This document shows positions 17,767 to 26,986 of a stretch of DNA of 40,952 nucleotides, one piece after another. Below the pieces are notes generated by a model that was not told where the DNA came from, did no database searches, and was given only the letters and a program-made list of their open reading frames with translations. The number at the start of each line of letters is the position of its first letter. Position 1 is the stretch's first letter. Source of the DNA: Pseudomonadota bacterium (GTDB lineage Bacteria > Pseudomonadota > Gammaproteobacteria > Burkholderiales > Gallionellaceae); NCBI GenBank assembly GCA_026399735.1, contig JAPLQK010000082.1:1-40952 (forward strand), written 5' to 3'. The translations under genes were made by a program, and so were the position numbers.

Positions 17767-18718
17767 GCGCCAAACCTAAAACACGCAACACCAATTCATC
17801 AAAACTGATTCCCGCCTCGCGCGCCGCCATCGGTACCAGACTGTGATCGGTCATACCGGGCGAGGTGTTCACTTCCAGCACGTAAGGCTGTCCGGTCTGA
17901 CTCATCAGAAAATCTACCCGCCCCCAGCCTTGCCCGCCTATCAGCGCGAATGCTTTCAGCGCCAGCCGCTGCATTTGTTCTTCGGCGGCCTTATCCAACC
18001 CGCTCGGACACAGATAACGTGTGTCATCACGCAGGTATTTCGCTTCAAAATCGTAAAACTCGTTTGCGGGTTCAATTTTGATGATCGGCAATGCCACACC
18101 GCCCAGAATCGCAACGGTGTATTCGCCGCCACCGATAAAACGCTCCGCAATCACCAGAGAGTCGTGCTTTGCAGCTTCACGGTAAGCCGTCTGCAGCTCG
18201 TTTTGGGCCTTAACTTTACTGATGCCGACGCTCGACCCTTCATTGGCAGGTTTCACGAACAGCGGCAGCCCCAACTGTTCAATGATCTCGCCCGCATCAC
18301 TATGCTCATCCAGCAGCACAAAATCAGGAACCGGCAATCCGCCTGCCTGCCAGACCAGCTTGCTGCGCCATTTGTCCATACCAAGGGCTGACGCCATTAC
18401 TCCGCTGCCGGTATATGGAATACCCAGCAACTCCAGTGCACCCTGCACTGTGCCGTCTTCACCGAAACGTCCGTGCAGCGCAATGAAAGCGCGGCTGAAA
18501 CCTTCATCCACCAACGCTTGCAAATTACGCGTAGCCGGGTCAAACGCATGTGCATCCACACCACTGCGCAACAATGAAGCCAATACAGCGGCACCGCTTT
18601 TAAGTGAAACTTCACGCTCGGCGGAGCGCCCGCCAAACAACACGGCCACTTTGCCGAATGATTCAGGATTCAGAATTCGGGATTCGGGCGTTAAAGGATT
18701 GGAGTTCTCTTTTTTCAT
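17756..18718 (-). CDS. ddl: D-alanine--D-alanine ligase, alternative internal start
   Basis: If ddl is translated on its own, the ATG at 18718 gives ~320 residues, near the DdlB norm plus ~18 residues of repeat-encoded leader. The downstream protein is complete: GGRSAERE motif, ATP-grasp lid ([18 protein letters not shown]), and the NTSPGMT metal/ATP site. It joins two D-alanines for the peptidoglycan stem peptide. Whether the cell makes a fusion, two proteins or both cannot be told from sequence. Confidence 0.6.
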
Positions 18719-19702
18719 GATTCTTGTTTTGCCTATGATTTTTACTTCCGGGTGCAGCTCCACCCCGGTTTGATTCAAAACTGTCTCACGCACCATGCAG
18801 ATCAGGTTTTCAATATCCGCAGCTGTAGCACCACCTGTGTTGACGATAAAATTTGCATGTTTATCAGATACTTGCGCACCACCGATACTCGCCCCTTTCA
18901 GCCCGCACTGTTCAATCAGGCGCGCGGAAAAGTCGCCCGGCGGATTACGGAACACCGACCCTGCGTTAGGCAGATTCAGGGGTTGACTGGCAATCCGCTT
19001 ACCCAGCAATTCCTTTATTTGCCGGCGCGACTGTGCGCCATCACCCGATTCGAATGAAAGCCAGGCACCAACGAATAATTCTGACTGCGAAGGGAGAAGG
19101 GAGAAGGGAGAAGGGACAGAACCCGGTTTTCCCTTCCCTCTTCCCTCTTCCCTCTTCCCTATGAATTCAACGCTCCGATAGCCGATTTCGTATTCCTGCG
19201 GCGTTCTCACCTTCAGTTCGCCGCTACGCGTCACAACCTGCACTTTTGCCACGTGCTGCCAGATTTCACTACCGTAACAACCCGCGTTCATCGCCAGCAT
19301 ACCGCCCAGCGTACCGGGAATTCCGGCACAAAATTCTGCGCCGCCCAAATCATGCAAGGCGGCAAATCGCGCCAGTTTTGCACCCGGCACGCCAGCCTGC
19401 ACATAGATCAGCCCGTCAGGCTGCAGACTCAATTCGCTCAGCGCGCCATGCATCAGCAATACCGTGCCGTCAAAGCCGCCGTCGCGCACCAGCAGATTGC
19501 TGCCCAGGCCTACCGCAACCACCGCTTCATCGGTTGGCAAGCAGCACAAATACACCCGCAAGTCATCCAGGTCAGCCGGCTGGTAACATGTCTTTGCCGC
19601 ACCGCCGGCACGCCAGCTGGTATGGCGGCGCATGGATTCAGCAAGACTCAGCTTGCCCCTCAGCGCGGCTTTGATAAACTGTTTCGGCTCGCTCATATTC
19701 AT
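17756..19702 (-). CDS. murB-ddl: MurB-Ddl continuous open frame (UDP-N-acetylenolpyruvoylglucosamine reductase + D-Ala-D-Ala ligase)
   Basis: One 648-codon frame covers both enzymes. Residues ~1-327 are MurB (FAD/NADPH reductase making UDP-MurNAc): [15 protein letters not shown] for [34 protein letters not shown] with the catalytic serine, and C-terminal HPEVKIIG. Residues ~328-648 are Ddl, an ATP-grasp ligase with [31 protein letters not shown] and [14 protein letters not shown]. No stop separates them, but an ATG at 18718 fits an independent ddl start. The MurB part carries a ~26-residue insert (KREEGRGKG...[11 protein letters not shown], ~residues 179-204) encoded by GAAGGGA/TTCCCTC heptamer tracts. 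The linker [14 protein letters not shown] is encoded by GATTCAG-type heptamers. The start at 19702 overlaps the murC stop as ATGA. Confidence 0.9.
18660..18687. repeat. GATTCAG-type heptamer tract (4 units) in the murB-ddl linker
   Basis: Four 7-bp units in the plus direction: GATTCAG, GATTCAG, AATTCGG, GATTCGG. They are translated (minus strand) into the linker just before the Ddl core. The same cyclic unit, perfectly repeated three times, occurs in murF at 26966-26986 on the opposite strand. Confidence 0.75.
19089..19161. repeat. Paired heptamer tracts GAAGGGA x4 and TTCCCTC x4 inside murB
   Basis: Four perfect copies of GAAGGGA (19089-19116), a 17-bp spacer, then TTCCCTC x3 with a final TTCCCTA (19134-19161). 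A purine-rich arm thus faces a pyrimidine-rich arm on the same strand. Both are in frame in murB and encode charged then Ser/Pro-rich peptide. The same motif types recur at the murF/mraY junction. Confidence 0.85.
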
Positions 19703-21099
19703 ATCTGTGCCATCTGTTTAACTGCGCCCGGCACATTGCCGATTGAACCCGCACCCATCGTGACAACCACGTCACCGGCCCTCGCCCATTGCAAAATTGA
19801 CCGGGGCATATCGGCAATATGTTCAACAAAAATGGCTTCGCTCTGCCCCGCCAGTCGCAATGCGTGCATCATCGCCCGGCCATCCGCCGCGACCAGTGGC
19901 GCTTCTCCCGCCGCATACACTTCCGCCAGCAACAAGGCGTCCACGCCGCACAGTATTTTCACGAAGTCTTCGAACAGATCACGGGTACGCGTGTAGCGGT
20001 GCGGCTGAAAAGCCAGCACCAGACGGCGGCCCGGAAACGCACCGCGCACCGCGGACAGGGTCGCGGCCATCTCAACCGGATGATGACCGTAATCGTCGAT
20101 TAAAGTGAAGCTGCCGCCATTTTGTAACGTGATTTCCCCGTAGCGCTGAAAGCGTCTGCCGACGCCTTCAAATTCGCTCAATGCCGCAACGATCGCGTCA
20201 TCTTCCACGCCCACTTCCAGCGCAATCGCAATTGCGGCCAGCGCATTCAGCACGTTGTGCATACCCGGCAAATTGAGCGTAATTTCCAGATCGCGCGGCG
20301 TGCCGTTCTGCCGGCAAAGCGCTGTAAAGCGCATCTGACCGTTCAGATGACGCACGTCGACAGCGCGTATCTGCGCTCCTTCGCTGAAACCGTAAGTTGT
20401 CACAGGCTTGGTGATACGCGGCAGCAGCTCGCGAATATTGGCATCGTCCACACACATCATCGCCCGTCCATAAAACGGCAGATGCTCGACAAAATCCACG
20501 AAAGCCTGCTTTAATCTCGCAAAATCATGACCATAAGTTTCCATATGATCCGCATCGATATTGGTCACGACCGCCAGAATAGGTTGCAAATACAGGAATG
20601 AAGCATCGGATTCATCGGCTTCCACAACGATGAATTCACCGGTTCCCAGCTTGGCATTGGTGCCGCTGCTGTTCAACTTGCCGCCAATCACAAAGGTAGG
20701 GTCGAATCCGCCTCGGGCCAGAATGCTGGCTGTCAGCGAGGTCGTCGTGGTTTTGCCGTGGGTGCCTGCCACCGCGATTCCCTGACGCAGACGCATCAAT
20801 TCCGCCAGCATCATGGCGCGGGGCACGACCGGAATATGTCGCGCACGCGCGGCCAGCACTTCCGGATTATCCCCACCCACCGCCGTGGACACCACCACCA
20901 CATCGGCTTCTTCCAGATTGGATTCGGCGTGCCCTATGGCCACTTTGATACCCAGTTCGCTCAGGCGCTTTGTCGATACATTTTCACTCAGATCAGATCC
21001 GCTCACGCCGAACCCCAGATTGAACAGCACCTCGGCAATGCCGTTCATACCTGAGCCGCCGATACCCACGAAATGTATCTGCTTGATTTTATGTCTCAT
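19699..21099 (-). CDS. murC: UDP-N-acetylmuramate--L-alanine ligase
   Basis: MurC adds the first amino acid of the stem peptide in the cytoplasm. From the ATG at 21099 the protein is 466 residues and begins [20 protein letters not shown], the normal N-terminal Rossmann motif. The start overlaps the murG stop as ATGA and has AGGGAGA upstream, so I prefer it to the frame-extended start at 21117. The Mur ligase P-loop is [13 protein letters not shown] at about residue 110, followed by [12 protein letters not shown] and the central [16 protein letters not shown] motif ([15 protein letters not shown]). Length and motifs are complete. Confidence 0.97.
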
Positions 21100-25781: not shown

Positions 25782-25863
25782 TCCGGCGTTTGAGAAGGGA
25801 GAAGTGAGAAAGGAGAGGGGGGTCCGGCGTTTGAGAAGGGAGAAGTGAGAAAGGAGAGGGGGG
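25782..25863. repeat. 41-bp perfect tandem duplication at the murF/mraY junction
   Basis: Two identical 41-bp units (25782-25822, 25823-25863). Each contains GAGAAGG, GAGAAGT, GAGAAAG and GAGAGGG heptamer-like blocks after TCCGGCGTTT. Pyrimidine-rich heptamers (TTCCCTC, TTCACCC types) follow at 25879-25905. 41 is not a multiple of 3, so the second copy changes the murF frame. Confidence 0.95.
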
Positions 25864-26965
25864 GAAACCTGTGCCACCCTTCCCTCTTCCCTCTTCACCC
25901 TTCTCGGTTTCAGTACAATAGGACACCACCCGTTCCATTTTCATGAAACGCGAACCTTTCACCAGTACTGTCATGCCGGCAGCCAACTCCTTATCCAGCA
26001 CTGCAAACAAATCATCAATAGAATCAAAATGTTGCGCATTAGCGCCGAATTCGCGAACCGCTTCCCGGCTCAATTCGCCCAGCGCATACAATTTATCGAT
26101 GCCCGACTGACGCGCCATGGCACCGATTTCGGCATGAAAGACGGCTGCGTTTTCGCCTAATTCGCCCATATCGCCCAACACCAGCACGCGCCGTCCTCCG
26201 GTCTGCGCCAGTACTGCGATGGCGCTGCAAACGTCCGGCGACACCGCCGAATTTTTCCAGGCCTTCGACTATGCTCTCCAGCGACAAGTTGAGTTCTATT
26301 GCTGCCGCTGTTGCCGCCAGCGCATTACGCGCGTTATGTTCACCGGGCACCTGCAAATCAACGGTAAAGTCGCCCGATGGCGTACGCACCATGAGTCGCA
26401 GTCCATTTCCCTGCGGATGCCATACGCCCGACACATCAGCCTCCGGGCTCAGGCCAAACTCCAGCAGTGAATGCACACCGGCAAGACTGCGCCACAGCGG
26501 CGCATATTCATCATCCGCGTTGATAATTGCACTGCCGCCATGCTGCAAACCGGAAAAAATTTCACCTTTGGCTTGGGCCACCGCCTCTACAGAACCCATA
26601 CCTTCCAGATGAGCTCCGCTGGCATTGTTGATCAGCGCAATCTGCGGGCAGGCAAGCTGAGTCAGATAGTCGATCTCCCCGGGATGGTTCATACCCATTT
26701 CAATCACGGCGTAGCGATGCTGCGAATTCAGTTTCAACAGGGTCAGTGGCATGCCAATGTCGTTATTCAGATTGCCGCAGGTCGCCAGCACGGCATCATC
26801 GCTTCCTGCGGCCACACGCAGAATGGAAGCTGTCATTTCCTTGACGGTGGTTTTTCCGTTGCTGCCAGTAATGGCGACCATCGGGATGTTGAATTGTTTG
26901 CGCCAGTGCGCAGCCAACTGCCCCAATGCAATTCTTGTATTTTCGACAGCAAGCAACGGAATGGC

Positions 26966-26986
26966 TGAATCCTGAATCCTGAATCC
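26966..26986. repeat. TGAATCC heptamer tandem (3 perfect copies) inside murF
   Basis: TGAATCC repeats exactly at 26966, 26973 and 26980. Read on the minus strand it encodes GFRIQDSA within a ~30-residue MurF insert. The unit is the reverse complement, cyclically permuted, of the GATTCAG unit in the murB-ddl linker. CACACAAC (26989-26996) and GTTGTGTG (27018-27025), just beyond, form an inverted pair within the same insert. Confidence 0.85.

Follow-up and report, generated by a model that had tools for sequence, protein, structure and literature searches.

Heptamer hairpin repeats re-use in-frame sites in essential genes of Gallionellaceae

Described repeats and the mur window of a Gallionella-like genome

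Elements of the REP/BIME type (repetitive extragenic palindromic sequences and bacterial interspersed mosaic elements), which go with REP-associated tyrosine transposases (RAYTs), are short palindromes, often in inverted pairs, and REP palindromes carry a GTAG or GGAG foot; arms built of heptads are, to our knowledge, not a usual REP trait. Here we compare such elements, and the heptamer repeats described in other bacteria, with a set of seven-base tandem arrays in and around the mur genes of a Gallionella-like bacterium. These arrays lie on a contig of 40,952 nucleotides (C37 of genome G000; GenBank JAPLQK010000082.1), the whole of which is called the window. The genome comprises 2.38 Mb (2,382,419 bases) in 117 contigs and is 82% complete, and its nearest named relatives include Gallionella, Sideroxydans, and Nitrotoga bins. 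A preliminary description of the window had listed several tracts; beyond it, we observed that many tracts form the arms of inverted pairs, that relatives carry other words at the same positions, and that other palindromic families occupy the position used in CysS. The repeats are dispersed in the genome, sites are re-used with different words while the reading frame is maintained, and one strong case of exchange between genomes was found.

Heptamer enrichment in bacteria is already known (MacGregor 2015, PMC4679880, citing Mrazek 2007), and the idea ascribed there to Mrazek 2007 is that DNA polymerase slips in seven-base steps. The same paper describes the TAACTGA repeats of Beggiatoaceae, which resemble the present arrays as low-copy tandem heptamers in many places and consist of one fixed word, nearly always direct and mostly just upstream of start codons. 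In Xanthomonas and Nostoc, dispersed GGGAATC and GGGGA(C/T)T heptamers have been reported (Rehm 2015, PMC4692102); the Xanthomonas repeats form 70 and 75 inverted convergent pairs, whose positions are mostly kept between two species while length and sequence vary. The arrays studied here are like these in being dispersed 7-bp units with variable letters and in forming inverted convergent pairs. However, the repeats in that account comprise one word family per organism and are mainly intergenic, whereas here many words occur in one genus, sites in MurB, CysS, Ddl, and MurF are occupied in frame, and words are replaced at the same site. For Geobacter metallireducens, a paper on multicopy tandem heptamer and octamer elements lists four tandem heptamers at 49 locations, both inside genes and between them, with paired opposite-strand arrays (PMC2700814); those arrays are read as regulator sites, and the accessible part of the description holds no same-site swapping between species. 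The closest in-frame palindromes are the Rickettsia palindromic elements (RPEs), several families of which are inserted in frame in protein genes; they are about 150 bp long with a conserved peptide (PMC10969869), unlike the heptad arms described here, which have no conserved word and share one site with unrelated families. Heptamer arrays and inverted pairs are therefore known elsewhere, and the apparently new part is same-site swapping in essential genes; in a literature that was mostly non-subscription, no description of such swapping, or of such repeats in Gallionella, was found.

In-frame sites in MurB, CysS, Ddl, and MurF

The hairpin in murB comprises the following features:
17756-19702, minus strand: murB-ddl open frame, with the MurB coding part at 18719..19702
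19089..19116: MurB hairpin arm, GAAGGGA x4, in frame
19117..19132: MurB hairpin loop (spacer)
19133..19160: MurB hairpin arm, CTTCCCT x4

The two arms have the units GGGAGAA and GGGAAGA, which are not exact reverse complements, and still pair into a long hairpin in which roughly one position in every 7 bp is mismatched. The hairpin is located at one codon position, after the motif YR[HS]V and before an FVGAWL-type strand. In two Protein Data Bank (PDB) alignments, similarity ended at residue 176-177 of the window MurB and restarted at 216 or 225, which places the insert in a stretch not common to those structures. The site was compared in 86 loci (31 relatives and 55 from genus genomes), 74 of them distinct, from which L067 was dropped because of N and stops at the site. 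Insert length in the 73 distinct Gallionellaceae MurB sequences was 27 nt in 17, 30-36 nt in 5, 42-51 nt in 5, and 72-171 nt in 46, with differences in multiples of 3, and the site was in frame and open in all 73. When the 50 inserts of at least 45 nt were considered, frame 0 was open in every one, compared with 17 and 7 for the remaining two sense frames. Ten of 14 long inserts from outside Nitrotoga folded with z <= -2.4 relative to mononucleotide shuffles. Beyond the family, the site could be measured in only 13 of 49 loci; twelve of these held 27-48 nt and the thirteenth 69 nt. The MurB position is not confined to heptamers: a REP-like GGGAGAGGGG element occupies it in L066, L215, and L219. 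As with RPEs, then, a palindromic insert is read in frame inside protein genes; the conserved sequence or peptide of about 150 bp that marks each RPE family was not seen, the MurB inserts compared having a median identity of about 0.5 over 1225 pairs and lengths of 45-171 nt. One Nitrotoga clade (L071, L077, L078, and L079) has a 78-81-nt MurB insert without a clear hairpin or heptamers, which looks like a decayed element.

A second site lies in CysS, where G000 and genome G029 have a tract in common. Of 50 loci drawn from the 56 genus genomes that gave a match, 46 were measurable, and the site was in frame and open in each. All 18 long inserts (at least 90 nt) were open in frame 0, compared with 8 and 4 in the two remaining frames. 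Several unrelated palindrome families were found at this one site, so the heptamer hairpin is one of several families that use the position. A CTAGCCATTC... repeat was also seen nested inside other palindromes at the CysS coding site (L348, L349, L351, L353, and L355). Heptamer arrays further occur at the Ddl N-terminus in many relatives, with other words and often as one C-rich arm, and in the N-terminal loop of MurF in several.

In the window, murB and ddl form one open frame, and the same-clade loci L199, L200, and L202 have no murB stop either; MurB may thus be fused to Ddl through a linker that the repeat encodes. At the murB-ddl junction, L075, L083, L085, L222, and L247 carry a hairpin repeat with a period of about 9 (CACAGAGNN), and other relatives carry heptamer or CGTAGCGTGCGC hairpins.

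Words at the MurB site change between close relatives. Across 1225 pairs of MurB inserts, the median insert identity was 0.51 where the flanks were 80-85% identical, and three close pairs carried different words despite flank identities of 94%, 92%, and 90%. On a quick tree built from MurC, the MurB core, and Ddl (73 rows), 12 word classes assigned by hand required 37 changes, and presence or absence of an insert required 12. The AGGATYG class alone needed 8 changes for 8 rows, and some classes showed no clustering on the tree. One ancestral insert diverging slowly was rejected as an explanation, since it clashes with the word changes between close relatives and with uninserted lineages spread over the tree.

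The inserts of the window and G029 are identical at 92 of 93 bases, whereas their flanks are 72% identical over 270 nt upstream and 77% over 240 nt downstream. This pair shows the largest excess of insert over flank identity among the 1225 pairs, and the two are not sisters on the tree. The 26-mer of the loop of the window MurB was found, allowing up to 3 mismatches, only in murB of G000 and G029 among 101 genomes (61 of the genus and 40 of other families, most of the genomes compared being metagenome bins). Alignment of insert and flanks suggests local exchange of a block, unless one assembly is wrong.

Period seven, dispersal, and layout of the arrays

All the tracts named in the preliminary description were recovered in the window with Tandem Repeats Finder. 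The tracts outside the MurB hairpin are:
915..950: GCAAGTG array, x2.6 (933)
18651..18695: GATTCAG array, imperfect, 3.7 copies (18660), encoding the Ddl N-terminal extension, the linker of the joined frame
24349..24373: AGCGGGT array, x3.6, in murD, in frame, single arm
25782..25863: exact 41-bp tandem duplication of degenerate GAGAAGG heptamers (25792/25833) at the murF/mraY junction, G-rich side
25871..25914: C-rich array, CTTCCCT x2.6 (25879), at the murF end, facing the G-rich 25782..25863
26959..27000: TGAATCC array in the MurF N-terminal loop (CTGAATC x3.3 at 26965)
26988..27056: REP-like core adjoining the TGAATCC array, then TGAGTCCTGATTCA (by eye)

The same REP-like core was seen by eye to adjoin a GATTCAG array in L035. 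The length of the 41-bp duplication is not divisible by 7. An Rfam scan of the window gave RNase P as its sole match, a class A RNA at 36511-36889 on the minus strand, within which the repeat finder placed no tract.

Perfect runs of a given period were counted when 10 or more bases matched beyond the first unit, and the counts were compared with shuffles. The window held six such runs with period 7 and none with any other period from 2 to 15, compared with about 0.05 in shuffles. As the preliminary description had it, the units differ, seven is the dominant period of the window, and the tracts are located in essential cell-wall genes of a betaproteobacterium; the GATTCAG array, listed there among perfect tracts, is imperfect. 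In 20 other stretches of G000 (302,967 of 2,382,419 bases), perfect tracts with periods 7 and 6 numbered 4 and 6 at the threshold of at least 10 matched bases, and 3 and 1 at 12. Perfect period-7 tracts are thus sparse and not above period 6 in these stretches, which makes the mur window unusually rich. When mismatches were tolerated in the same stretches, period 7 gave 4 tracts and each other period from 4 to 14 at most 1. A pattern of GGG plus spacer, four times, had 47 matches with period 7 in the whole genome, none with period 8, and 10 with period 6.

Period 7 also led in the mur regions of relatives. Perfect tracts with 12 or more matched bases were tallied over 514,604 bases from 27 Gallionellaceae-like regions: period 7 had 13, period 14 had 7, period 9 had 4, period 8 had 2, and period 6 had 1, compared with 4, 10, and 3 for periods 7, 6, and 8 in 53 other loci. 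With mismatches tolerated and slightly different groups, 30 Gallionellaceae-like loci gave 29 tracts with period 7 and at most 2 with any other period from 4 to 14, and 50 other loci gave 1 with period 7 and 4 with period 6. In the genus genomes, GGG-N4 repeated four times had 983 matches in 52 of 61 genomes and GGG-N5 had 30 in 18. However, GGG-N3 outnumbered GGG-N4 (1,586 matches, 58 of 61 genomes), which counts against a simple reading; the period-6 matches among those listed belong largely to another dispersed repeat of the GGGAGAGGG type. The enrichment of 7-bp units over other periods that characterises the known heptamer repeats is therefore present, although the random G000 sample shows it only if mismatches are tolerated. 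Period 7 exceeded periods 6 and 8 in that mismatch-tolerant sample and in the GGG pattern of G000; it was not above period 6 among perfect tracts of the sample or in the genus-wide GGG-N3 count. The view of the preliminary description that the tracts imply a shared process stands.

In G000, the sequence GAAGGGAGAAGGGA occurs at 36 overlapping positions, representing 19 separate sites; 24 of the 61 genus genomes and none of the 40 from other families carry it. By eye, many tracts in G000 have a common layout consisting of a G-rich heptamer array, a short spacer, and a C-rich heptamer array. Across the collected loci of G000 and other genomes, 214 heptamer segments were found, and 94 of them had a complementary arm scoring at least 15, a count that includes each hairpin's two arms. 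The word families distinguished by eye include GGGAGAA, AGGATYG, AAGTGGG, CAAGGNN, GTGAAAN, GGACTGA, CAGARGA, and GTAGCNN. Loops are variable, with AAAACC or GGTTTT near the tip in several, and some contain other palindromes. The surroundings of the tracts, judged by eye, look mostly intergenic. Heptamers also occur beyond the genus: G083, from another family of the order, has 249 GGG-N4 matches, several of which, among those listed, form plus/minus pairs. Words in G083 include GGGGCTA, GGGACTA, and GGGGCGA, and several listed pairs are about 60-100 bp apart.

Probable repeated arrival of palindromic elements and competing explanations

Because the same spots carry different sequences in many species of these iron bacteria and remain in frame, the tracts look like elements landing repeatedly rather than frame-shifting switches. 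We consider it probable that they are arms of small palindromic repeats, REP- and RPE-like in behaviour, that repeatedly occupy permissive sites and are kept in frame. Heptad hairpins would reside in Gallionellaceae genomes alongside other REP-like palindromic families and would arrive repeatedly at tolerant positions, namely gene junctions and, in essential proteins, loops or ends (the CysS loop around residue 331, the N-terminal loop of MurF, the N-terminus of Ddl, and the place in MurB that follows the YR motif). Elements may then be lost or overwritten by others and occasionally transferred between species as a short block. Their arms may grow and stay alike through slippage by 7 bp combined with copying from one arm to the other via the hairpin, and, to judge from the frame statistics, purifying selection would remove out-of-frame or stop-containing versions in genes. 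Movement of the elements, its route, and this account of the unit of seven are what we infer from these patterns.

Several findings weigh against this explanation. The close pairs L086/L223, L063/L212, and L059/L207 keep the same word, and the word classes, which rest on assignment by hand, together cluster more tightly on the tree than shuffled labels do (37 changes compared with a mean of 47.3, with 0 of 200 shuffles as low), so part of the signal is descent. Four of the 14 long MurB inserts from outside Nitrotoga are not clearly more stable than shuffles, the Ddl and MurF sites often hold a single arm, and the exchange rests on one pair in which assembly error is possible. Heptamer segments were found within about 450 nt of Y1/RAYT genes in 0 of 20 loci, and no transposase, element ends, or target duplication was demonstrated.

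No generating enzyme was identified among the candidates considered. Reverse transcriptase (PF00078) had no match in the heptamer-rich genomes G000, G028, and G029, showing that it is not required, and its association with heptamers across the genus was absent (p = 0.73). Genus genomes bearing Y1/RAYT had more period-7 matches (median 10 compared with 0, p = 3.5e-5, kinship uncorrected); the corresponding value in the 40 genomes of other families was p = 0.11. Unlike REP/BIME elements, whose RAYT gene is flanked by the repeat, no heptamers stood beside the 20 Y1/RAYT genes, in a flank scan where open reading frame ends were misplaced in L309, L315, and L316 and some flanks were cut by contig ends. 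The Y1/RAYT transposase was rejected as generator on these three grounds.

Plain heptamer microsatellites, in which polymerase slips in seven-base steps and tracts arise and die in place, are a possible but less likely explanation. They would account for the prominence of period 7 and for single-arm tracts, and heptamers are the most abundant class of 5-11-nt repeats in many bacterial genomes (PMC4679880). However, they leave unexplained the inverted pairs, the replacement of whole words between relatives with 90-94% identical flanks, the presence of palindromes other than heptamer ones at these MurB and CysS positions, and the insert shared at 92 of 93 bases across diverged flanks.

It is rather improbable that the arrays are regulatory or structural sites kept for a role, binding IHF/HU-like proteins or forming quadruplexes or mRNA hairpins. 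The paired arrays of Geobacter metallireducens have been interpreted as IHF/HU sites (PMC2700814), G3N4 words of related repeats can form quadruplexes in vitro (Rehm 2015, PMC4692102), and inverted pairing recurs in the other family represented by G083; yet words, lengths, and presence vary at the same site, 17 of 73 MurB sequences have no insert, and some words lack GGG. Similarly doubtful is a bolder scheme in which essential genes of Gallionellaceae would hold fixed docking positions where palindromic cassettes of unrelated families replace one another, within and across species, through a dedicated enzyme or recombination pathway copying hairpins seven bases at a time.

An assembly artefact is very unlikely: most of the genomes are metagenome bins and the exchange is one pair, but the tracts recur across many bins that are independent of each other, as well as in genomes made up of a single contig (G055 C1:2501574), and the frames are intact. 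Translational bypassing was rejected, as it needs no open frame, yet all MurB inserts are open and in frame. Phase variation, by which copy-number changes would toggle mur genes, is the most remote of the alternatives. Copy changes of 7 would shift the frame, and the preliminary description had proposed such slippage as the source of frame lesions; the mur genes are essential, however, lengths differ by multiples of 3, and no out-of-frame state was seen in the assemblies (0 of 73 MurB and 0 of 46 measured CysS), which makes the tracts poor candidates. The lesion in murF is a 71-nt deletion near 26224 (26214-26235), as judged against L059, L061, L063, and L074, by which the DDTYNANP stretch is lost and the frame shifted; it is either a real loss or an assembly error and lies about 310 nt from the closest edge of a tract.

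The sites described here connect heptamer arrays, known as slippage tracts, quadruplex repeats, and regulator sites, with in-frame palindromic elements. They amount to a natural experiment across dozens of species in which small palindromes enter, leave, and replace each other inside intact essential proteins. A single fixed site allows arms, words, and flanks to be set side by side, which makes the question of why seven-base units prevail testable.

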